DNA of 64,000 nucleotides, taken from Alienimonas californiensis (GTDB lineage Bacteria > Planctomycetota > Planctomycetia > Planctomycetales > Planctomycetaceae). Under the pieces are notes generated by a model. It was given only the letters and a program-made list of their open reading frames with translations. It did no database searches and was not told the DNA's origin. A program made the position numbers and the translations under genes. The stretch spans positions 4,409,823 through 4,473,822 of the forward strand of contig NZ_CP036265.1 in NCBI RefSeq assembly GCF_007743815.1, in the 5' to 3' direction. Shown one piece after another: positions 1,118-12,896 of the stretch; position 1 is the first letter of the stretch; each line of letters opens with the position of its first letter.

Positions 1118-2644
1118 ATGGCAGCTCAAGGCAAATCCACCGGGCTTCAGGTGGGACTTATCATCGCGGTGGTCGTCGCGCTGATCGCCTCCGTCGCCGC
1201 GTTCATCATCTATCGGCAGGACAGCCAGAACCAGGTCCGCTACGCGACGATCGAGCAGGAGAAAGAGAACGTTCAGCGGGTGAACGAGACGCTCCGCAAC
1301 GAAATCGCCGCGATCAAGCAGACCCTCGGCACGACCGCCAGCGAAGCCGGCCTGGCCGACCGGGCCGCGGGCACGGTGCTGGGCGACCTGGACGCGCGGA
1401 TCGCCAACTACAACACCGACCAAAACGAACAGACGCTGTTCCAGGTCGTCGAGAACCTGGACGCCCTGCTGGAAGCGGAACGGTCCCGGTCGGGCCAGTA
1501 CGCATTGACGAACGCAGCCCAGCGTCAGGAGATCAACGGCCTGAACAGCAAATACAGCCGCGAGTCGCAGCAGTATATGGAAGCCCGCAACGTCGCCGTC
1601 GCCGACCGCGGCGACGTGCAGGCCGCGACCGACGAACGCATCCGGGCCGAGCAGGCCCGCCGGCAGGAGATCGAGGACACCCTCGCTTCGACCAAGGCGG
1701 AGCTGGAAGAGGTCAAGGAACAGTTGGCGAACCGCGAGGCGGAACTCGAAGACCAGATCGCCGAACTGGCGGAAACGAACCGGCGCCTGAATCGCGACCT
1801 GGCGATGCAGGAGACCCGCAGCTTCACCACCGCCGACGGCAAGATCGTCAACCTGCAGCGCAGCACCGACACCGTTTACCTCAACCTCGGCAGCCGGCAG
1901 AACCTGCGTCCGGGCGTGACCTTCAGCGTCTACGACAAGGAACAGGTCGGCCCGACCGGCGGCGACATCAGCGCCCTGAAGGGGTCGATCGAAGTGCTGA
2001 GCGTCGGCGAGCAGATCTCCGAGGCCCGCATCACCGAAGTCACCACGCTGGAGCCGCTGTCCGTCGGCGACCCGATCTTCAGCCCGGCCTGGTCCCCCGG
2101 CCGCAAGAGCCTGTTCGCCTTCGTGGGGATGATCGACCTCGACGGCGACGGCAACACGACCGGCGAACGCGATCGCCTGCGGCGCATCCTCAACGACGCC
2201 GGCGCCGAGATCAGCGTCTACGTCGACGACGACGGCAACTGGGTCGACGGCGACGGCGATCCGAACGTCAACAAGCCGCTGGACGTGAACACCGAAATGC
2301 TGGTGCTCGGCAACATCCCCGATCCGTCCGAGGTCTCCGACCCGGCCCGTAAGGCGGCCTTCTCCAAGATGCGTGAGCACCTGACGGAGATCCGCGGCCA
2401 GGCGGAGCGGAACGGCATCGTGGTTAAGAACCTCAAGACCTTCCTCGACACGATGGGCGTGCAGAGCACCCGCCGCCGGTTCGTGCCGGGGCAGGACCCG
2501 AACTTCAACAACCGCGGCGACCGGGATCGGCAGGTCGATCCCAACCCCTCCTCGCCCGTCAGCGGCCTGTTCGATCCGAACCGCGGCCGTCGCGGCAGCG
2601 AGATCGACCCGCAGCCCAGCAGCCGGTTCAACCCGCAGCGGTAA
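1118..2644 (+). CDS. membrane-anchored coiled-coil protein of unknown function
   Basis: 508 residues. One transmembrane helix lies near the N terminus (about residues 10-32, LIIAVVVALIASVAAFIIY). A long Glu/Gln/Arg-rich coiled coil follows to about residue 235, including runs such as QARRQEIEDTLASTKAELEE. A compact acidic region with repeated D-D-G-D elements follows (about residues 325-385). The C-terminal ~60 residues are Arg/Asn/Pro-rich and probably disordered. The topology suggests a single-pass anchor with the coiled coil in one compartment, but the side is not clear. I do not recognise a named family and no enzymatic motif is visible. The gene is isolated, divergent from polA and convergent with the GTPase operon. 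Confidence 0.75.
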   Translation: MAAQGKSTGLQVGLIIAVVVALIASVAAFIIYRQDSQNQVRYATIEQEKENVQRVNETLRNEIAAIKQTLGTTASEAGLADRAAGTVLGDLDARIANYNTDQNEQTLFQVVENLDALLEAERSRSGQYALTNAAQRQEINGLNSKYSRESQQYMEARNVAVADRGDVQAATDERIRAEQARRQEIEDTLASTKAELEEVKEQLANREAELEDQIAELAETNRRLNRDLAMQETRSFTTADGKIVNLQRSTDTVYLNLGSRQNLRPGVTFSVYDKEQVGPTGGDISALKGSIEVLSVGEQISEARITEVTTLEPLSVGDPIFSPAWSPGRKSLFAFVGMIDLDGDGNTTGERDRLRRILNDAGAEISVYVDDDGNWVDGDGDPNVNKPLDVNTEMLVLGNIPDPSEVSDPARKAAFSKMREHLTEIRGQAERNGIVVKNLKTFLDTMGVQSTRRRFVPGQDPNFNNRGDRDRQVDPNPSSPVSGLFDPNRGRRGSEIDPQPSSRFNPQR

Positions 2645-2668: not shown

Positions 2669-2704
2669 AACGCCCCGGTCGCCTCAGGCGCCCGGGGCGT
2701 TTTC
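2669..2704 (+). terminator. Rho-independent terminator of the coiled-coil gene
   Basis: AACGCCCCGG (2669-2678) pairs perfectly with CCGGGGCGTT (2692-2701), with a small inner GCC/GGC stem, and is followed by a T run. The hairpin overlaps the last codons of the convergent GTPase gene, which ends at 2684. Confidence 0.8.
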
Positions 2705-4600
2705 GTGCGCCGAGCGGCCGGCAGGCCGCTTTGCCCCCGCTCCGGCGACCGGGGCGCCGGCGAGTCGGTCGCGGGCGGCGGCGGCCTCCCCGGCGAGTCG
2801 GTGTAGCCGGTCCGCCGCCGCCGCCGCCCGGGCGACGGCGGCGTCCAGCGCCGGGAACAGCCCGGCCGGGGTACGGCCAGCGGAGACGCTGCGGGCTAGT
2901 TCGTTCACCTCCTGATCGAGCCCCCGCCGCAACCGCCGGCTGAACAGCATCACCAACAGCCCGGCCCACAGCGAGGCGAACACCGCCCCGGCAATCCAGT
3001 AGTCCCCGCCGTACAACACAGGCCCGGCGGCCGTGGCGACCTCGGCGTCGCCAAAGATCAGCGGGTGCAGGAAGGTGTCCCAGAAGAAGTTCTTCGCGGC
3101 CCGCAGCAGGATCACCGCCGGCAGGCTGAGCAGCAGGATTTCGTACCACAGCCGGACCGGCGTGCGGCTGTTCTTCGCCGCCAGTTTCTTGATCAGGGCG
3201 TCCACCTTCCCCCGCACCCCTTCCAGAAACCGCCCCTCCGCAGCGACGCCCTGATCGCGGATCTGCGCGTCGGTGAGGGTCAGCAATTCGGTCGGCAGCC
3301 CGGCGTCGGCGGTGAAGCCCTGTAACCGGAAGCGGGCGTCCCGCAGCAGACCGTCGTCCTGCCCGAACGCCCCGAGCTGATCCAGCCCCGCGTCCGCCGC
3401 GTTGCCGGCGTGGTAGTCCCGCAGCTTCTGGCCGGCCATCGTCGCGCCCACCAACGCCACCGCGGCGGCGTTGCGGGCGCGGAACAGGCTGGACGACGTG
3501 ATGTAGCCGCCGATGCCGTTGTAGAACCGCAGGGAGATGCTGAACGGGCTCACGCCCCAGGCGGTCGCCACCGCGTCGGCGAGTCGTCGCTCCCAGACCC
3601 CCGGATTGCCCAGCAGTTCCTCTTTCAATCGAGCCGTCATCGCGGCGGTGAGGGCCTCGCGCTCCGCCGCCAGCTTCTCGCCCACGGCGTCCAGAGCCGG
3701 CCGGCGCTGCCGCACGTTGGCGTCGGCCCGATCCAGGGCTCCGAGGAGCAGATCGAGCAGATTCGCCCGCCGCACCGCGACCCGGGCGTGCTCGGACAGT
3801 TCCGTCCGCAACGTCTCGAGCAGCCGGGCGAACTCGCCGGTCGGCAGACGGCCGGCCTCGCGCTCCGTCTGGGCCCGCACCGAGTCGACGAAGTACAGGT
3901 CATCGGGCGCGACCTCGAACCGCTCGCCGAGCACCCGGCGCCAGTCCTCGCGGATGTCGCCGTCCGTGGCGGCGTGGGTCTGAACGAACAGCAGGCGGCA
4001 GCCGCGGGCGGCGTGCAGCAGTTCGTCGGCGACCCGGGCGTTGCGGTACTTCTGCTGCGTGCTGACGACCAGTAGCACGTCGCAGTGCGGGAGCAACTCC
4101 CGCAGGCGGCCGAGGTTCGTCGCGGCGCCCTCGCCCTCGGCCTCCACCTCGGTGGTGTCCGGGTCGGGGCAGTCGACGAGGATGAACTCCCGCAGTGCCG
4201 CGGCGTCCGCCCGCTTCACCCGCACCCGGTCCAGCGGCAGGCCGAGCGGGGCGAGGTCGGTGTCCGGGTGGGCGACGAGCGTCGGCGTGGTGGTCGTCGG
4301 CCGCTGCTTGCCGGGGAGGGCGACCTCCTCGCCCACCAGCGCGTTGACCAGCGTGCTCTTGCCGGTGCCGGTGCCGCCGAAGGTGGCGACGACCAGCGGC
4401 GCCTCCAACCGCACCCGCACGGCCTCCGCCCGGCCCAGCACCCGGCGCAGCAGCCCGCGGGCGTCCGCCAGCGGTTCCCAGCGGGCCGCGTCGCGTTCGA
4501 CGCCGGGAACGTCCGCCGGTTCCTCCGCCCACTCGCGGACGCGGCGGATCAGCCCGTCGATGCGGGCAAGTTGGTCCAGGCGATCGAGTTCAGGCGACAT
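2684..4600 (-). CDS. dynamin-like GTPase, second of a tandem pair
   Basis: 638 residues from the ATG at 4600; a TTG four codons upstream (4612) is an alternative. The N-terminal P-loop domain has G1 GGTGTGKS (75-82) and a Thr-rich switch I (PTTTTPT). G3 reads DCPD (143-146) instead of DxxG. A TQQKY motif (181-185) occupies the usual switch II/helix position, and VQTHA stands where NKxD is expected. Two hydrophobic segments (about 484-502 and 533-555) suggest membrane insertion, as in bacterial dynamin-like proteins. The C terminus is helical and Ala-rich. It starts 28 nt after its paralogue at 4629-6533, so co-transcription is likely. A membrane-remodelling role is inferred from architecture only; nucleotide preference is uncertain because G4 is not canonical. 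Confidence 0.75.
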   Translation of the reverse strand: MSPELDRLDQLARIDGLIRRVREWAEEPADVPGVERDAARWEPLADARGLLRRVLGRAEAVRVRLEAPLVVATFGGTGTGKSTLVNALVGEEVALPGKQRPTTTTPTLVAHPDTDLAPLGLPLDRVRVKRADAAALREFILVDCPDPDTTEVEAEGEGAATNLGRLRELLPHCDVLLVVSTQQKYRNARVADELLHAARGCRLLFVQTHAATDGDIREDWRRVLGERFEVAPDDLYFVDSVRAQTEREAGRLPTGEFARLLETLRTELSEHARVAVRRANLLDLLLGALDRADANVRQRRPALDAVGEKLAAEREALTAAMTARLKEELLGNPGVWERRLADAVATAWGVSPFSISLRFYNGIGGYITSSSLFRARNAAAVALVGATMAGQKLRDYHAGNAADAGLDQLGAFGQDDGLLRDARFRLQGFTADAGLPTELLTLTDAQIRDQGVAAEGRFLEGVRGKVDALIKKLAAKNSRTPVRLWYEILLLSLPAVILLRAAKNFFWDTFLHPLIFGDAEVATAAGPVLYGGDYWIAGAVFASLWAGLLVMLFSRRLRRGLDQEVNELARSVSAGRTPAGLFPALDAAVARAAAAADRLHRLAGEAAAARDRLAGAPVAGAGAKRPAGRSAHENAPGA

Positions 4601-4628
4601 GAAAATCTTCAAGGCGAGCGGCGGGGCG

Positions 4629-6533
4629 TCAGCCCCCCGCGCGTTCTGTGCTGTTGGAAACCGTGACCGGCTCGCGTTCCCCGCTCGCCCGCTGCAGTTC
4701 GGTCAACGCCGTTCCCACCGCGGCGAACGCTTCGGAGTCGGGCAGGGCGGCGGCGTGGGCGACGTCGGAGACCAGCGGCCCCAGCAGCGCGTCCCGCACC
4801 CAGCGTTCGAGCCAGGCCCGACGCCGCTCCGCGAAGCGGCGTTCGATCCGGGCGAGCTTGGCGTTCACCCGCATGGCGAGAGTGCCGGCCCCGGCGCCGG
4901 CCGCTTCGCCCGCGGCGGCGGCGGCCCCGCCGACCAGCGTGTCCGCCACGACCGTGATCCCCGCGGCGGCCAGTTCCGTGCCGATCACCCCGGTGCCCAG
5001 CAAGCCCACGGTCAGCGCCGGCCGGCCCATCACCGCGGCGCCGTCCAGCACGCGCAGCCAGCGGCCGGCGCGGGGGTTGTTCGTCAGCAGGGCGTCCATC
5101 TCCGTCCGCACGACCCCGGCCAGTTCCTCGTCCAGATCGCAGGCGGCATGGTCGGCCCGGAGGCGTTCCAGCAGCTCCGCCCGCGGGGCCCCGCCCAACG
5201 CCGCGGCGAGGCGGGGGGCGAGCACCGGATCGCTCTCCCGCAGTCGTTCGAGCTGGCTGAATAACCGTTCCACCGCCCGGCGGAACAGGGCGAACTCCTC
5301 CTTGGAATAGCCCTCCAGCGGCGGCGGCTTCGGGCCCCGCAGCGCCCGTAACGGCTGGGCGATCAGGCCGCCCACGACGGAGTAGGCGTCGGCGACCCGG
5401 CGGGTCGCCCCCGTCCGCCGGCCCCGCCACCAGTCGCGGACCTCGTCTACCAATGCCGCGGAGGGCACCGGCGGCCACTTCGCCTTGCTGTCGGTCAGTT
5501 CGTCCATCAGGTGTTCGCCCGCCGCCGCGAACCGCCCGGCGGCCTCCCGCACCTCGCGCAGCCACGCCGGGACGCCGTCGTCCGGACTGGCCAGTCGATC
5601 GACCGCCCCGGAGAGCGTGCGGAGCTTCACCTCGTCGAAGTGCAGTTCCGACAGGGCGACCCGCAGCGTGTCGCCGTCGGCCGACAGCCTCGCTTGCGCT
5701 TCGGGCTCACTTTGGTCCGGCGGCCAAGGGCGTTCGTGGAAGGGCAGCCGCAGTTCTTTCGCCGCCACCCGATCGTGCGGGGCGAGGAACAGCAGGTCCG
5801 GCGCGATGCCGGTGCGTTCCGCGAACGTGCCGACCCACGTCGGCCAGTACTGCTCGTCCTCGGGCAGATGCACCTGGTTGAAGACGACTACGACCGCCGC
5901 GTCCGCCCCGTGGACGTGCCGGCCGCCGGCTTCGCGGAAGAACCGCACGACGGCGGCGTCGTTGTATTTCTGCTCCGTGACGACGGCCAGCAACACGTCG
6001 GCGGCGGTGCGGATCTTCGCGGCCCGCTCCCAGTTGACCGGGGCGTCGCTGTCGACGTCCGGCGTGTCGAGCAGCAGCAGATTCGCCGGGACCGCGTCGC
6101 TTTCCGCCCAGAACAGCAGGTCGCGGTCGTCGGCCCGCAGGGCGGCGTCCGGGTCCCGTTCGTCGAGCTTCGTGGGGGTGAAGCCGGGGAAGATCTCCTC
6201 CAGGCGATGGCTCTCACCGAACCCGGTCGGCACGAGGCAGGTGGGATGCTTGGTGCCGCTGGCGAACTTGCTGCTGGAACTGGCTTCGAAGCCGGCGAGG
6301 TGATTGAAGATCAGCGACTTGCCGATGTTCGTGCCCCCCACGACCGCCACCACCAGAAACGCCCCGCCGCCGCCGGGGCCTGGGAGTTGGGGCAGCAGCT
6401 TGCCGTGCAGCGTTTCGTGCCAGGGCCGCTCCTTCGCCGGGCGCAGATCGAGCGCGCCGGCGTGGCGGTCCAACGCGGAAACGGCCTCCGCCAGTCGGCG
6501 GGCCGCGGCGGCGAACTCCGCGAGATCGGCCAT
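4629..6533 (-). CDS. dynamin-like GTPase, first of a tandem pair
   Basis: 634 residues. G1 is GGTNIGKS (66-73), and a Thr in GTKHPTCL is a plausible switch I residue. G3 is DTPD (156-159) rather than DxPG. TEQKY (186-190) matches the same motif in the downstream paralogue, and FNQVH (218-222) replaces NKxD. A Gly/Ala-rich hydrophobic stretch (about 504-555) could insert in membranes and is followed by a basic helix. Bacterial dynamin-like proteins often occur as adjacent pairs, which fits this arrangement. It lies between the zinc-ribbon/TPR gene upstream and the second GTPase downstream. The GTPase fold is well supported; the biological role is unknown. Confidence 0.75.
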   Translation of the reverse strand: MADLAEFAAAARRLAEAVSALDRHAGALDLRPAKERPWHETLHGKLLPQLPGPGGGGAFLVVAVVGGTNIGKSLIFNHLAGFEASSSSKFASGTKHPTCLVPTGFGESHRLEEIFPGFTPTKLDERDPDAALRADDRDLLFWAESDAVPANLLLLDTPDVDSDAPVNWERAAKIRTAADVLLAVVTEQKYNDAAVVRFFREAGGRHVHGADAAVVVVFNQVHLPEDEQYWPTWVGTFAERTGIAPDLLFLAPHDRVAAKELRLPFHERPWPPDQSEPEAQARLSADGDTLRVALSELHFDEVKLRTLSGAVDRLASPDDGVPAWLREVREAAGRFAAAGEHLMDELTDSKAKWPPVPSAALVDEVRDWWRGRRTGATRRVADAYSVVGGLIAQPLRALRGPKPPPLEGYSKEEFALFRRAVERLFSQLERLRESDPVLAPRLAAALGGAPRAELLERLRADHAACDLDEELAGVVRTEMDALLTNNPRAGRWLRVLDGAAVMGRPALTVGLLGTGVIGTELAAAGITVVADTLVGGAAAAAGEAAGAGAGTLAMRVNAKLARIERRFAERRRAWLERWVRDALLGPLVSDVAHAAALPDSEAFAAVGTALTELQRASGEREPVTVSNSTERAGG

Positions 6534-6602
6534 GAGCTGAGGGGAAGGGCGGGCGAGCGAGAAACCGGCGGGGGCGGGACGATACGCGATCCGCCCGGCA
6601 GT

Positions 6603-7637
6603 TCACGCCCACTGCCTCCGCAACTCCGCGAGTTCTTCCGTCCGCCCGGACTGCTCCAACAGCGGGGCGACCCGCTGGTAGGCCGGGGCGTAGTTCGCGC
6701 AGTCGTCCAGACTGGCGAGGAAGGCGTCGGCGGCCCGGTTCGTCTCGCCCTCGCCGGCCAGCGCCAGACCGAGGTTGTACTTCACCCCCGCCGCGGCCCC
6801 GAGGCGTTCGAGGATCGCCCGGTACCTGGCGATGGCCGCGTCGAACTTCCCGGCCCGGGCCGCTTTGTTGCCGGCGTCCAGGCCCGCGTAGGGTCCGCCG
6901 GTCAAGTCGCTGCCGTAGGTGCGGGCCAACTGCGTGAGGGCCACCGGCACGCCGAGGACGAACGGGGCGTTGACGACCAGCATCTTCCAGGCATCACCGC
7001 GCATGCAGGCCGGGCAGCGCCACGTCGCGCGGACGTTCCAGCCGTACACGACCAGCAGGAAGTAGAAGTAGAACACCGTGAACTTCCGCGGGGCGGCGAA
7101 GTAGCCGCACTCGTCGCAGATGCGGTGCGCCGTCTCCCACGCCGGCGGATCGGCGGCGGCGCGTTCAGTCCAGAGGGTCTCACAGAAGGCGCAGAACACC
7201 TGCGGGGTCTTGGGCATGTCGCTCAGCACCGCGGTCGCCTCGCAGTGCGGGCAGGTTGCGGAGCGAAACGCGGCGCCGCGGCCGGCCGCCTCCAACTGCT
7301 CCCGGTGCGATTCGGCCCATGCCGCGCTCCGGGCGACGTCCAACGCGGACTTCAGCGACTGCGCGGTCGCATTCCCGGAAAACGACGCCCCGATCGTACC
7401 CGCCCGCGGGCCGGCGGCTTCCTCTGCCGTTGAGTCGTTCTCCACGGGGACGACGAGGAACAGCAGTTTGTCCCGCGCCTGGACGTCCATCAGGGCGGCG
7501 GCGGGCAGGGTGACGTCGTCGAGCGTCAGCGTCTCGCCGTCCCAACGCCCCTTTTTCCGAAACAGGCCGGCCGGTTGGCCCTGCTCGTTGAGGAAGCGAA
7601 ACTTGAACCGCAGCGGGTCGTCAGGGGAGGGTGTCAC
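6603..7637 (-). CDS. zinc-ribbon, membrane and TPR-like protein, first gene of the GTPase operon
   Basis: 344 residues. The N-terminal ~100 residues form a beta-rich domain of unknown type (RFKFRFLNEQGQPAGLFRKK). Two zinc-ribbon-like CxxC pairs follow: CPHC...CAFC and CDEC...CPAC. Hydrophobic stretches lie between and after the second pair (FTVFYFYFLLVVYGW and MLVVNAPFVLGVPVAL). The C terminus has tetratricopeptide-like helices (KFDAAIARYRAILERLG, then KYNLGLALAGEGETNRAADAF). It precedes the two GTPases on the same strand with a 69-nt gap and may be their membrane partner or adaptor; this rests on position alone. The family is not recognised. Confidence 0.65.
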   Translation of the reverse strand: MTPSPDDPLRFKFRFLNEQGQPAGLFRKKGRWDGETLTLDDVTLPAAALMDVQARDKLLFLVVPVENDSTAEEAAGPRAGTIGASFSGNATAQSLKSALDVARSAAWAESHREQLEAAGRGAAFRSATCPHCEATAVLSDMPKTPQVFCAFCETLWTERAAADPPAWETAHRICDECGYFAAPRKFTVFYFYFLLVVYGWNVRATWRCPACMRGDAWKMLVVNAPFVLGVPVALTQLARTYGSDLTGGPYAGLDAGNKAARAGKFDAAIARYRAILERLGAAAGVKYNLGLALAGEGETNRAADAFLASLDDCANYAPAYQRVAPLLEQSGRTEELAELRRQWA

Positions 7638-7717: not shown

Positions 7718-9265
7718 TCAGAGCAGGTCGCTGGCGAGTTCGGCCAGTTCGCTGCGTTCGCCCTTCTCCAGCGTGACGTGGGCGTACAGCGGCTGCCCGG
7801 TCATGCGGTGGATCAGGTGCGATAAACCGTTGGAGAGGCCGTCGAGGTAGGGGTGGTCGATCTGCTTCACGTCGCCGGTGAGCACGATTTTGGTCCCCTC
7901 GCCGGCCCGGGTGACGATCGTTTTCACCTCGTGCGGGGTGAGGTTCTGGGCCTCGTCGATGATGAAGTAGATGCGGGGCAGGCTGCGGCCGCGAATGTAG
8001 GCCAGCGGGCTGATCTCCAGCTTGCCGGTCTCCAGCATCAGGGGGATGCGCTTGGCGTCCTCGCTCTCGTCGCCGAGGGCGTGCCGGATGACGGACAGGT
8101 TGTCGTGCAGCGGTTGCATGTAGGGGTCGAGCTTCGCTCCGATGTCGCCCGGCAGGAAGCCGAGGTCCCGGTTCGACAGCGGCACGACGGGACGGGCCAG
8201 CAGGATCTGGCGGTACTTCGTCCGCTGGGCCAGCGCCGCGGCGAGGGCCAGCAGGGTTTTGCCGCTGCCCGCCTTGCCGGTCAGCGAGACCAACCGCACG
8301 TCGTCGTCCAGCAGCGCCCGGACGGCGAAGCTCTGCTCCGCGTTGCGGGGGGCGATGCCGTAGACCGTCGATTTTTCGACCCGGCGGAACTCCCGCGGGC
8401 CGGGCAGGTAGGTCGCCAGGGCGGACTTGGAGCCGTTGCGGAGGATGAAGTTCTCGTTGGCGATCGGGCCGACCACCTCCGGCAGCTCGGCCGCCGGCAC
8501 GCTGCCGGGGGGGGAATAGAAACGGTCGACCGTTTCCGACGGCATGTTCTGGACGATCCGCTTGCCGGTGTAGAGGGCCTCGTGGCTCTCCACCTTGTCG
8601 TTCTCCCAGTCCTGGGCGATCAGGCCCAGCGCCTTGGCCTTCATCCGCAGGTTGGTGTCCTTGGTGACGAGGACCACGATCCGCTGATCGCCCTCCGCCC
8701 GGTGCACGGCCATCGCGGCGGCGAGGATGCGGTGGTCCGGGGTGTCCTCGGTGAACACCCCCTGGATCGCCGGGTCGTCCCGGCGGCCCATCACGACCCG
8801 CACCCGGCCCAACTTCGAGCCGTCACCCGCCTCGCCGAGGCCGATGCCGGCGGTGGAGAGCAGTTCGCCCGTCAGCCCGTCCAGTTCCCGCAGAAAGCGC
8901 CGGGCGTGGAAGTGCTTTTCCTCCGCCCCCTTCTTGAAGCGGTCGAGTTCTTCCAGCACCGTCATCGGAACCGCGACGTCGTGCTCGGCGAAGCTCCGCA
9001 GGCACTGGGAGTCGTGCAGGATCACGTTCGTATCCAGCACGAACGTCTTGGGCACCGGGCCGGTGTCCGGGGTACGCACGTCGTCCGCGGCGTCCTCCAG
9101 GGTTTCGTCGTCCGCGGCGAGTTCGTCGGGCGAAGGGGGGCCGCCGGGCGAGGCGAGGTTCGGCTGCTCCTCCCCGGCGGCGGCGTCGAGTCCTGCGCCG
9201 AAGTCCGAGGCGCCGGAGTGGCTGTCGAAGGCGACGGGCGAACGCAAAGCGGCCGGAGCGGACAT
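7718..9265 (-). CDS. PhoH family protein with N-terminal PIN domain (PhoH2 type)
   Basis: 515 residues. After an ~85-residue low-complexity acidic N terminus comes a PIN nuclease domain starting [18 protein letters not shown], with the acidic residues typical of metal-dependent RNases. The PhoH ATPase domain carries Walker A GKAGSGKT and Walker [14 protein letters not shown], then LTGDVKQID, as in superfamily 1-like helicases. PIN-PhoH fusions are known as RNA helicase/RNase proteins (PhoH2, YlaK). It is monocistronic, transcribed away from tadA across a 289-bp spacer that holds no other gene I can support. The start [10 protein letters not shown] is the first ATG; the poorly conserved N terminus makes it uncertain. 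Confidence 0.9.
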
Positions 9266-9554
9266 AAGCGGGATCCGAGGGGCTGACGTCGGGGACGGGC
9301 GGCAACGGGCGCTAACGATAGTTCCTCACCGCCGGACCACCGACCCCGACCTGGGGTTCGGCGGGATGAGGATCCCGTGAAGCCGACGGGGAGCGACGTG
9401 GCAAAACCGGCACGAACGGCGCGCTCGCACGTTGCCGTTCCGCCACATGGCCGCCGCCGCCGGCGCGGTCCGCCCGACCGAACGGCGTGACCTAGGTTCG
9501 CAGACCGGCATTCCCCCCGCCGGCGCCGCCGCGTCCCTCCTCGCTCCCGCCGTC

Positions 9555-10886
9555 ATGTCCGCCGCCCGCACCGCCGCCCGCCCCGGCCGCCCCTCGACCG
9601 GTCGCCCCGGCGAGCAGATGGATTTCGAAGACTTAAAGCGCCTGATCCACGGCAAACTGGTCGACAAGCTCGACCTGTCCCGCCTCGGCGACCTGGAGGG
9701 GGACACCCTCCGGCGGGAGATCCGCCTCGTCGTCGAACACCTCTGCGACACCGAAAACCCGCTGTTGAACCGCGGCGAGCGGGAGCGGCTCGTCGAGGAG
9801 GTCCTAGACGAAACCTTCGGCTTCGGTCCGCTGGAGATCCTCCTCAAAGAGGAGGGCGTCGCGGACATCATGATCAACGGCCCGAAGTGCGTTTATATTG
9901 AGAAAGAAGGCCGCATCCTGAAAAGCCCGGTGACGTTCCGGGACAACGATCACCTGCTGCAGATCCTCGACCGGATCGTCTCCAAGGTCGGCCGGCGGAT
10001 CGACGAAACCAGCCCGATGTGCGACGCCCGCCTGCCGGACGGCTCCCGGGTGAACGCCATCATCGCCCCGCTGGCGCTGGACGGCGCCGCGATCACCATT
10101 CGGCGGTTCGGCTCGAACCCGCTGACGCTGGAAGACCTGCTCAAGTTCGGGGCCTTCACCCCGGAGATGGTCATGCTGCTGGAAGGGGCCATGAAGGCCC
10201 GGCTGAACGTGCTCGTCTCCGGCGGCACCGGCTCCGGCAAAACGACGTTGCTTAATACGCTGTCCAGCTTTATTCAGCCGGACCAGCGGATTATCACCAT
10301 TGAGGACGCGGCGGAGCTTCAACTCCAGCAACCGCACACCCTGCGCCTGGAAACCCGTCCGCCGAACATCGAGGGGAAGGGCGCCGTGACGGCGACCGAT
10401 CTCGTCAAGAACGCGCTGCGGATGCGGCCGGACCGGATCATCATCGGCGAGTGCCGCGGACCGGAGGCCCTGGACATGCTCCAGGCCATGAACACCGGCC
10501 ACGAAGGCTCCCTGACGACCATCCACGCCAACACCCCGCGGGACGCGGTGAGCCGCCTGGAAACGATGATTTCCATGGGCGGCGTCGAACTGCCGATCCG
10601 GGCGCTGCGTCATCAATTCGCCAGCGCCGTGGACCTCATTATTCAGGCCAACCGCCTCCAGGGCGGGCCGCGCAAGGTTACGGATATAACAGAAGTCGTC
10701 GGCATGGAAGGGGATACCATCGTCATGCAGAAAATCTTCGAGTTCGTGCAGGACGGCATCGGCGAGAACGGCAAGGCCTTCGGCCACTTCGAAAGCACCG
10801 GCGTGCGGCCGACGTTTATGGACCGGCTCGAGTCGGCGGGCGTGAAGCTGCCGCACAACCTGTTCGCCGCCCGGCGCCTGGGTTGA
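9555..10886 (+). CDS. tadA: Tad/Flp pilus secretion ATPase TadA (CpaF family)
   Basis: 443 residues from the ATG at 9555, which follows a C-rich leader; an ATG at 9618 ([12 protein letters not shown]) is a good alternative. It belongs to the type II/IV secretion ATPase family. An N-terminal helical region leads to [18 protein letters not shown], typical of CpaF. Walker A is [11 protein letters not shown] (about residues 221-231), and the Asp-box/Walker B region is [19 protein letters not shown], followed by the His-box [11 protein letters not shown]. It forms a hexameric cytoplasmic ATPase powering pilin assembly or retraction. tadB and tadC follow on the same strand. No pilin, prepilin peptidase, TadZ or Flp secretin gene is visible in the window. 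Confidence 0.93.
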
Positions 10887-10935
10887 GCCCCGTCGCTTCG
10901 CCCTTCCCGCCCCCCGTCCCCCGCCGCACGCCCCC

Positions 10936-11901
10936 ATGATCGCCTCGCCGCTGGTTATCTCGCTGTTCGCCTTCGGGTTCGTCGCGCTGCTGGCGCTCGC
11001 GGCGATGGTCACCTGGCGGAACAGCGCCGCCACGGACGTCGAGGACCGTCTCACCGCCCTGGTCGGCGGGAAAAAGGCCGCCCCGAAGCTGAAAACCAGC
11101 GAACTGCTGGCCGAAGCCTCCGACGGGATGAGCGGCCTGGCGGGGCGGATCGGCGGGTCGCTAACGAAGCTCGGCCTGATCCTGGAGCAGGCGGACAACC
11201 CGATGACGCCGAACACGTTCTTTATCGCCACCGGCGGGTGCGCCTTCGCGGGCTTCGCCGCCGCGGTGCTCGGCGGGGCGCCGGCCCCGCTGTACCCGAT
11301 CGCCGCCCTAATCGCCTCGGTGGGGCCGTTCGGCTACGTCCTGTTCATCCGCCGTCAGCGGCATAAGCGGTTCGCGGCGCAGATGCCGGACGCGTTGGAG
11401 TTAATCGCCCGCGCCCTCCGCAGCGGGCACAGCCTCGCCAGCGGCCTGCACGTCGTCGTCGAGGAGATGCCGCAGCCCGTCAGCAAGGAGTTCAGCCTGG
11501 CTTACGAGGAGCAGAACCTCGGCCTGCCGCTGGAACACGCGCTCAAGAACATGCTGAAGCGGGTCCCCAATATGGACTTGAAGTTCTTCGTGACCGCGGT
11601 CGCCATTCAACGGGCGGCCGGCGGCGATATGGCGGAGATCCTCGACAAATTGAGCCATCTGATCCGCGAACGTTTCCAGATCATGGGTCAGGTGCAGGCC
11701 CTCACCGGGGAGGGCCGCATCTCCGGGCTGGTGCTGATGGCCCTGCCCGTGGGGACCTTTCTGGCAATCTACTACATCAACCCGAGCTACATCGAGCCGC
11801 TGTTCGAGGACCCCCGCGGCCGCATGATGATCGGCGTGGCGACTGTCTTGCAGGTCGTCGGGGCCGTTGTCATCAAGAAAATCGTCAATATTAAAATCTA
11901 G
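10936..11901 (+). CDS. tadB: Tad pilus inner-membrane platform protein TadB
   Basis: 321 residues. It has an N-terminal transmembrane helix (LVISLFAFGFVALLALAAMV), a second hydrophobic region around the first third, and then a T2SSF (GspF-like) domain. Recognisable TadB features are QMPDALELIARALRSGHSL, EEQNLGLPLEHALKNMLKRV and LTGEGRISGLVLMALP. It forms the membrane platform with TadC above the TadA ATPase. It starts 49 nt after tadA in a C-rich leader (gcacgcccccATG) with no Shine-Dalgarno motif. Confidence 0.9.
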   Translation: MIASPLVISLFAFGFVALLALAAMVTWRNSAATDVEDRLTALVGGKKAAPKLKTSELLAEASDGMSGLAGRIGGSLTKLGLILEQADNPMTPNTFFIATGGCAFAGFAAAVLGGAPAPLYPIAALIASVGPFGYVLFIRRQRHKRFAAQMPDALELIARALRSGHSLASGLHVVVEEMPQPVSKEFSLAYEEQNLGLPLEHALKNMLKRVPNMDLKFFVTAVAIQRAAGGDMAEILDKLSHLIRERFQIMGQVQALTGEGRISGLVLMALPVGTFLAIYYINPSYIEPLFEDPRGRMMIGVATVLQVVGAVVIKKIVNIKI

Positions 11902-11963
11902 CGGCGGCGGCGTTCGCTACCGATCGGTCACCTTCCGCTCCCCCCTCATCCGCCCGCCCTTCA

Positions 11964-12896
11964 ATGTCCCTCGAAACCCTGCTGCCCTTCGCCGTCGGCG
12001 GGGCGATTCTGTTCTCGGCTCTGGGAGCGGTCAGTCTGTTTTCCAACGCCCGCAGCTCCGCGGACGATCGGCTGGACCGGCTGCGGGACCCCCGCCGCCG
12101 CGGCGACAAGCAGGAGAAGTCCCGCGGCGCGGGATTCAGGAACGCTGCGCAAAGAGCCGCGCCCGCCCTGTCCAAAGCGTTGACGCCGAAGACGGACGCG
12201 GAGGTCTCCGCCCTCCGCCTGCGCCTGGTGAATGCCGGCTTCCACAGTCCGGCGGCGCCGCAATTGTACCTCGCGCTGAAATCCGCCGTGGCCCTCGGCG
12301 GCCTGGCGGCCGGCTTCGTGTACGGCACGGCGAACTACGGGATGACGCTCAATACGGCCTTCTCCGCCATTATCGTCGGCGGTTTGGCCTTCTACCTGCC
12401 GGAGGGCGTCCTTTACTTCATAGTGAAGTCCCGCAAGGAACAGATCTTTCTCGGGCTGCCGGACGTGCTGGACCTGTTGGTGGTCTGCGTCGAAGCCGGA
12501 TTGGGATTGGACGCGGGCATGCGGCGGGTCGCCCAGGAACTGGAAGACACACATGAAGCCGTCTGCGAGGAAATTAATATCTGCAACAAGCAACTGAACC
12601 TCGGTTCGCCGCGGCGTCAGGTATTGCACGACCTCGGCGTGCGGACCGGCGTGGACGATATGCGAGCCCTCGCCGCCGTGCTGATTCAGGCCGACAAGTT
12701 CGGCAGCAGCATCGGCGAGGCGCTGCGGACGCAAAGCGATTCGATGCGAATCAAACGCCGCCAACTCGCGGAGGAGCGCGCCCAGCAGACGGCGGTCAAG
12801 CTGATCTTCCCGCTGGTTCTGTTTATTTTCCCGGGCATATTTGCGGTGCTGGTCGGGCCGGCGGCGCTGATGATCATCGACGGCGTGCTGGTCTGA
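11964..12896 (+). CDS. tadC: Tad pilus inner-membrane platform protein TadC
   Basis: 310 residues, T2SSF domain. Membrane helices lie at the N terminus (LLPFAVGGAILFSALGAVSL), the centre (two around residues 110-150) and the C terminus (VKLIFPLVLFIFPGIFAVLV). TadC-type motifs include LPDVLDLLVVCVEAGLGLDAG and ALAAVLIQADKFGSSIGEAL, then RIKRRQLAEERAQQTAVKL. It is the paralogous partner of TadB in the pilus platform and sits 62 nt downstream of it. It is the last gene of the tad group here; the next gene is an unrelated oxidoreductase. Confidence 0.9.
   Translation: MSLETLLPFAVGGAILFSALGAVSLFSNARSSADDRLDRLRDPRRRGDKQEKSRGAGFRNAAQRAAPALSKALTPKTDAEVSALRLRLVNAGFHSPAAPQLYLALKSAVALGGLAAGFVYGTANYGMTLNTAFSAIIVGGLAFYLPEGVLYFIVKSRKEQIFLGLPDVLDLLVVCVEAGLGLDAGMRRVAQELEDTHEAVCEEINICNKQLNLGSPRRQVLHDLGVRTGVDDMRALAAVLIQADKFGSSIGEALRTQSDSMRIKRRQLAEERAQQTAVKLIFPLVLFIFPGIFAVLVGPAALMIIDGVLV

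Follow-up and report, generated by a model that had tools for sequence, protein, structure and literature searches.

Do two adjacent genes of the planctomycete Alienimonas californiensis, each encoding a dynamin-like protein with altered guanine-nucleotide motifs, form the halves of one system, and what has become of their nucleotide recognition? The genes, A and B, lie in a stretch of 64,000 nucleotides (the window; positions 4409823-4473822 of a genome that consists of one contig of 5,475,215 bp, for which Alienimonas chondri is the nearest named relative found). Transcription on the minus strand proceeds there from a PhoH/PIN protein through a zinc-ribbon/tetratricopeptide repeat (TPR) protein, C, to B and then A. 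We find that A and B are real, conserved and coherent, and that they represent a variant of the paired dynamins already known from bacteria. The reading that we favour, with somewhat more than even confidence, is that they are the halves of a paired dynamin-like system resembling Cj-DLP1/2, with asymmetric nucleotide recognition.

Two dynamin-like proteins with altered motifs

The pair consists of:

4629-6533, minus strand: gene B, first of the pair, a dynamin-like protein of 634 residues (AlphaFold2 model with a predicted local distance difference test score, pLDDT, of 85.4 and a predicted template modelling score, pTM, of 0.80)
2684-4600, minus strand: gene A, second of the pair, a dynamin-like protein of 638 residues (orthologues aligned; AlphaFold2 pLDDT 77.6, pTM 0.66)

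A gap of 28 nt separates the stop codon of B from the ATG of A. This ATG at 4600 (MSPELD, 638 residues) appears the more likely start, because the family consensus opens with xxPEL; a previous reading of the letters without database searches (the sequence-only reading) had used a TTG at 4612, which would lengthen the protein by 4 residues. A and B share 82 identities across 272 aligned columns (30%).

The sequence-only reading had described P-loops in both proteins, D-x-P-D at G3, a G4 that is not NKxD and a shared [ST]-x-Q-K-Y motif, all of which are indeed there. We aligned them with orthologues from Planctomycetaceae, the family of the window genome, obtaining a set of 36 A sequences (the window protein and 35 of the 41 A from named loci) and one of 44 B sequences (the window protein and 43 of the 80 B from named loci).

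4355-4378, minus strand: G1 P-loop of A, GGTGTGKS; GGTG[TV]GKS in 36/36 aligned A
4289-4303, minus strand: RPTTT of A, putatively assigned as candidate G2/switch 1; all 36 A share the R, the P and two T
4154-4174, minus strand: G3 of A, DCPDPDT, DxPD replacing DxPG; seen in the sequence and conserved in orthologues
4046-4060, minus strand: TQQKY of A, in the loop after the core strand taken as beta4 (model strand 175-180, helix 188-197)
3968-3979, minus strand: G4 site of A, THAA (THAD in the family, mostly NKxD in other families), directly after model strand 202-207
6315-6338, minus strand: G1 P-loop of B, GGTNIGKS; GGTN[IL]GK[ST] in 44/44 aligned B
6048-6068, minus strand: G3 of B, DTPDVDS; seen in the sequence and conserved in orthologues
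5964-5978, minus strand: TEQKY of B, in the loop after the core strand taken as beta4 (model strand 180-185, helix 193-203)
5868-5879, minus strand: G4 site of B, NQVH; seen in the sequence, with a varied Asp position across the 44 aligned B

The [ST]xQKY motif starts 35 (A) and 27 (B) residues past the last residue of DxPD, and the QKY loop ends 23 and 29 residues, respectively, ahead of G4. We regard the motif as more than a chance resemblance, because the pattern is confined to A and B among the 81,484 residues of all six-frame open reading frames of at least 100 residues in the window and because it is kept, together with DxPD, in all orthologues from the named family genomes (41/41 A and 80/80 B).

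Searches with Pfam profiles by hmmscan placed MMR_HSR1 above cut-off for both proteins. Dynamin_N (PF00350, gathering cut-off 27) scored 26.4 for A by hmmscan and 27.6 in a search of the genome, and 12.3 for B by hmmscan. The genome search gave one further PF00350 match, which reads as EngA/Der; it missed B and was therefore not exhaustive. When the PDB was searched with profiles of the head domains, most matches were to EngA/Era and dynamins ranked lower. Structural comparison of the predicted models bore out the dynamin-like character proposed from sequence: with VIA, the best match of model A was 9kff (Fzo1; Z 23.5, 303 residues, 3.7 Å), with three more rows tied, that of mitofusin 1 (5yew_A, Z 22.8) among them, and that of model B was 9kfd_B (Fzo1; Z 22.4, 324 residues, 4.7 Å), with two more rows tied. 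Foldseek matched BDLP (first for A, second for B), IniA, Drp1, mitofusins and the DLP1/2 pair of Campylobacter jejuni. As modelled, A and B are dynamin superfamily-like proteins with a head and a helical neck and trunk, and the trunks carry hydrophobic segments:

2939-3139, minus strand: hydrophobic trunk hairpin of A, residues 488-506 and 536-554, with family-mean hydropathies of 1.55 and 2.2
4908-5039, minus strand: hydrophobic region of B, residues 499-542 (stretches 499-517 and 524-542), with pLDDT under 50 at 510-546

These segments bear on the idea that A and B are nucleotide-binding regulatory scaffolds without membrane remodelling, like RdcA (CrfC/YjdA) of E. coli, a protein with the annotation of a regulator of diguanylate cyclase. 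CrfC is the best NCBIfam match of A (E 4.9e-7), over residues 67-116 only, and RefSeq gives the name rdcA to b4109, which we take to be CrfC. However, unlike A and B, the E. coli protein has DTPG and NKFD, and both window proteins have the hydrophobic trunk segments; we consider a scaffold role very unlikely.

Conservation and descent of the pair

All 36 A and 44 B sequences conform to the P-loop pattern GxxxxGK[ST], and the P-loop Lys, the G3 Asp and the candidate switch-1 Thr are invariant in both sets, because of which Mg-nucleotide binding has probably been retained. The position of the G4 Asp varies. In the aligned A it is occupied by D (28), E (4), G (2) and A (2), the two Ala-bearing sequences being those of the window and of A. 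chondri, and the complete loss of this Asp in the window protein is, on this alignment, atypical of the family. In the aligned B the residue is L (21), Q (9), H (6), E (4), D (3) or V (1).

Homologues outside the family are divergent and were recovered by profiles. The 30 stretches that we chose, many of them for showing two hits, so that the proportion of tandems cannot be read as an unbiased frequency, comprised 28 tandems and two with a lone B-like gene (L255, L257). One tandem, L267, was dropped as being the same place as L077, leaving 27 distinct pairs; these and the other counts refer to related sequences, not to independent events. G3 was DxPD in 27/27 first and 27/27 second genes (54/54), as well as in both lone genes. 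In contrast, the G4 Asp was kept in 27/27 second genes (mostly as NKxD, also as NRMD, GRAD, GRRD and THCD) but in only 2/27 first genes (NKLD in L252, NKVD in L261). A looser form of the loop motif, [KR]Y, was found in 21 of the 26 second and 21 of the 27 first genes read. Like A of the window, more distant relatives of A in family f2 are devoid of the G4 Asp (QTHAA, L068). Fourteen further stretches, examined after the 27 pairs, yielded two tandem DxPD pairs in agreement with them (L308, L311), two stretches in which only one DxPD gene was visible (L309, and L310 near a contig end), nine solitary dynamins and one stretch (L307) with two DUF697 GTPases.

By the sequences read, DxPD is the hallmark of the tandem family, and the distinct family claimed by the sequence-only reading stands in so far as every member whose G3 was read has this motif. 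Some GIMAPs also carry DTPD. The same reading had taken the deviation at G4 to be shared, which it is not: since outside second genes keep the Asp and first genes mostly do not, the loss of NKxD was not one shared change. Its loss is, as judged from these alignments, lineage-specific and unequal between the two proteins, A having undergone it later. Canonical relatives, by which that reading proposed to be judged, thus exist for G4, as NKxD, while no member of the tandem family with DxPG was seen.

The varied G4 also raises the possibility that one or both proteins, above all B, lack guanine specificity and use ATP or any nucleoside triphosphate (NTP), like the GTPase-derived ATPase SpoIVA. 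Only 3 of the 44 aligned B have the Asp, A reads THAA in Alienimonas, and changes to G4 and G5 in SpoIVA and Era favour ATP, according to an excerpt of PMC7952092. Yet the Asp is kept in all 27 outside second genes and in 28 of the 36 aligned A, and the loss of a motif does not by itself fix specificity, for which reasons this explanation seems to us rather doubtful.

A and B are an old pair. Among the 294 genomes of our phylum sample, 21 are of the family, and all 21 have both genes in full length, adjacent to each other in 13. In named family genomes, A lies directly after B in 41 of the 71 loci (out of 80) that have enough contig to tell, and both genes are present, at least in part, in 32 members of a separate sample of 37 family genomes (the relatives). 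The tandem order recurs across families, with open frames that, measured from stop to stop, abut or overlap. Side-by-side genes of the Cj-DLP1/2 type are thus found in the window, in 13 of the 21 family genomes and in the 27 outside pairs.

In an unrooted tree of head domains (83 rows), A falls together with 15 outside second genes (support 83/88); the group that contains B comprises five outside first genes plus one lone gene (99/88). The labels of first and second genes require 7 and 5 changes on it, and shuffled labels about 24; by this tree, first and second genes are mostly two old lines. Solitary dynamins with DTPG form a separate clade (100/100), which stands beside the second genes at moderate support (82/88). 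Several branches are long and some rows of odd composition, making the deep order unsure; on this unrooted tree, DxPD may have arisen once or more than once.

Proposed paired action and the surrounding genes

The predicted fold, the conserved nucleotide-binding residues, the co-occurrence, the recurrent tandem order and the uneven G4 all speak for a heteromeric pair that remodels membranes and has unequal nucleotide recognition. This reading is further favoured because pairing is usual, most bacterial dynamin-like proteins (DLPs) occurring side by side (excerpt of PMC6104087); because Cj-DLP1 and Cj-DLP2 are active only together, with negligible GTP hydrolysis alone and clear activity as a 2:2 tetramer (same excerpt); because LeoA alone neither binds nor hydrolyzes nucleotide in the experiments covered by an excerpt of PMC4159319; and because changes to G4 and G5 can shift specificity, as they do towards ATP in SpoIVA and Era.

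Several observations weigh against it. The canonical G3 (DxPG) and G4 ([NT]KxD) are absent from both proteins, and in the second gene of one outside pair (L259) the P-loop Lys is replaced by Asn. Foldseek TM-scores normalized to the query are low (0.17-0.32), and pLDDT drops below 50 in part of the A trunk (383-412) as well as in the hydrophobic region of B (510-546). The first and second genes do not fall into two clean clades, given the 7 and 5 changes, and a conserved partner gene or neighbourhood of A and B, looked for in the family loci, was not recognised. Finally, A and B are apart in 8 of the 21 genomes that represent the family in the phylum sample, four of these 8 (G005, G153, G033, G328) having them far apart on the same contig, and 5 of the 37 relatives have only one partner: B is missing from G012, G016 and G017, and A from G014 and G027, the latter listed as 99% complete.

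The last two points, along with the lone B-like genes L255 and L257, would suit A and B acting separately as homo-oligomeric dynamin-like proteins, with a tandem order merely inherited from duplication. We hold this to be unlikely: the two co-occur without exception in the 21 family genomes, and their order is repeated across families with abutting or overlapping frames. As to the lone genes themselves, both have DxPD, and each sits in a genome with a tandem pair on a different contig.

In the favoured heteromeric system, each partner would have a nucleotide-binding head and a helical neck and trunk, and the hydrophobic segments of the trunk would probably insert into the membrane. A and B would form hetero-oligomers, their heads dimerizing across the nucleotides, and the [KR]Y loop would sit at the interface of the head dimer, presumably in the place of the trans-stabilizing loop of dynamin. 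Driven by NTP turnover, the pair would tether or remodel the inner membrane of the planctomycete cell; elaborate inner membranes are characteristic of Planctomycetes. In most families the A line would have retained the Asp that reads guanine; the B line would have lost it early, so that B is probably not strict about the base of the nucleotide that it binds, or acts mainly as an activating partner. In Planctomycetaceae, the G4 of A would also have drifted, from NKxD to THAD and, in Alienimonas, to THAA. The motifs, their conservation, the recurring tandem, the predicted fold and the hydrophobic segments are shown directly by the analysis. We infer the hetero-oligomer, the role of the loop, the membrane action and the nucleotide behaviour from genes and models, and the same holds for the altered nucleotide recognition and the role at internal membranes that the sequence-only reading had proposed. 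Taken further, the DxPD dynamins might constitute a separate tandem class, in which A reads guanine, B is blind to the base and the heterodimer thereby controls hydrolysis, and which, in Planctomycetaceae, has moved off strict GTP in both partners to become a membrane remodeller driven by ATP or mixed nucleotides; this proposal we regard as quite improbable.

A pair with fixed DxPD, one partner of which keeps the guanine-reading Asp and the other loses it, offers a natural test of how nucleotide work is shared in paired dynamins, a division that is also an open question for mitofusin pairs, and testing it would take two proteins and a planctomycete that is kept in the laboratory. Our search of the open literature on dynamin together with Planctomycetes or Planctomycetota, by title and abstract opening, found no paper about a planctomycete dynamin system, although a passing mention is possible.

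Upstream of the pair lie two further genes:

6603-7637, minus strand: gene C, zinc-ribbon/TPR protein, upstream of gene B
7718-9265, minus strand: PhoH/PIN protein, first in the order of transcription

The sequence-only reading had A and B working as a pair together with C and called for a check of their co-occurrence. The pairing of A and B held, although their adjacency is not universal; C is not a general partner. It has strong matches in 6 of the 37 relatives, a distribution on which we rejected it as a third component, and is next to A and B only in the two Alienimonas genomes; in the other four it lies on different contigs. The C protein has a hydrophobic stretch, and its gene is scattered across Planctomycetaceae, with two copies in G023.

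In family f3, five of six loci (L072, L073, L074, L075 and L079, not L071) have an oxidase-like gene, the pair and a CHAD-type gene in this order, the CHAD assignment being confirmed by Pfam in one of them (L079, 2.8e-38). The arrangement hints at a link to polyphosphate in this family; these genes are not clustered in the remaining loci compared. A role in antiphage defence was rejected, PADLOC giving no convincing match to A or B (7e-4 and 0.036). As to spread beyond Planctomycetota, one outside A-like protein searched against plasmids had no match.

Convergent with gene A is a coiled-coil-like protein (1118-2644, plus strand), relatives of which adjoin the pair and a DNA polymerase I-like gene, identified by reading only, in G013, G035 and G009. 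On the other side, 9432-12896 (plus strand) encodes a type II/IV secretion ATPase (T2SSE, 3.6e-65) followed by two membrane proteins, read from their translations, and is probably a tight-adherence pilus cluster.

Comparison with known systems

Mitofusin/Fzo1 and Nostoc BDLP provide the best structural matches to A and B, across head and neck, at 11-18% identity. Unlike A and B, they have canonical G3 and G4 motifs.

The solitary dynamin-like genes (L299-L306, L312), found in other families, share the phylum with A and B and are found by the same head-domain profile, yet all nine have GE[VY][KN][SA]GKS, DTPGTNS and [NAST]KxD. They represent a second, more canonical line of planctomycete dynamins, one of which (L304) matches Dynamin_N at 5.4e-23. 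The adjacent DUF697 GTPases of L307 (5519-8552), with DTPG and NKxD, come from family f5, in which our searches met no DxPD pair; this DTPG tandem, from genome G049, scored 30 and 15 bits and was placed outside the A/B family because it is DUF697.

SpoIVA is a precedent for an altered G4 in a TRAFAC GTPase, although it is not a dynamin (excerpt of PMC7952092). LeoA/LeoBC are tandem dynamins like A and B, and PADLOC matches to them are weak: the best (2.2e-9) belongs to an A-like gene from outside the family, in L077, and A and B themselves reach only 7e-4 and 0.036. LeoB differs in keeping the classical DXXG (excerpt of PMC4159319).

In Cj-DLP1/Cj-DLP2 of Campylobacter jejuni (PDB 5owv, 5oxf), identity to A and B in structural alignments is 10-13%, and DxPD and the altered G4 set the window proteins apart. 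The 2:2 assembly is that of the Campylobacter proteins; A and B may or may not share it. Like A and B, however, Cj-DLP1/2 are an adjacent gene pair with the dynamin fold, and their chains are among the structural matches of both A and B.

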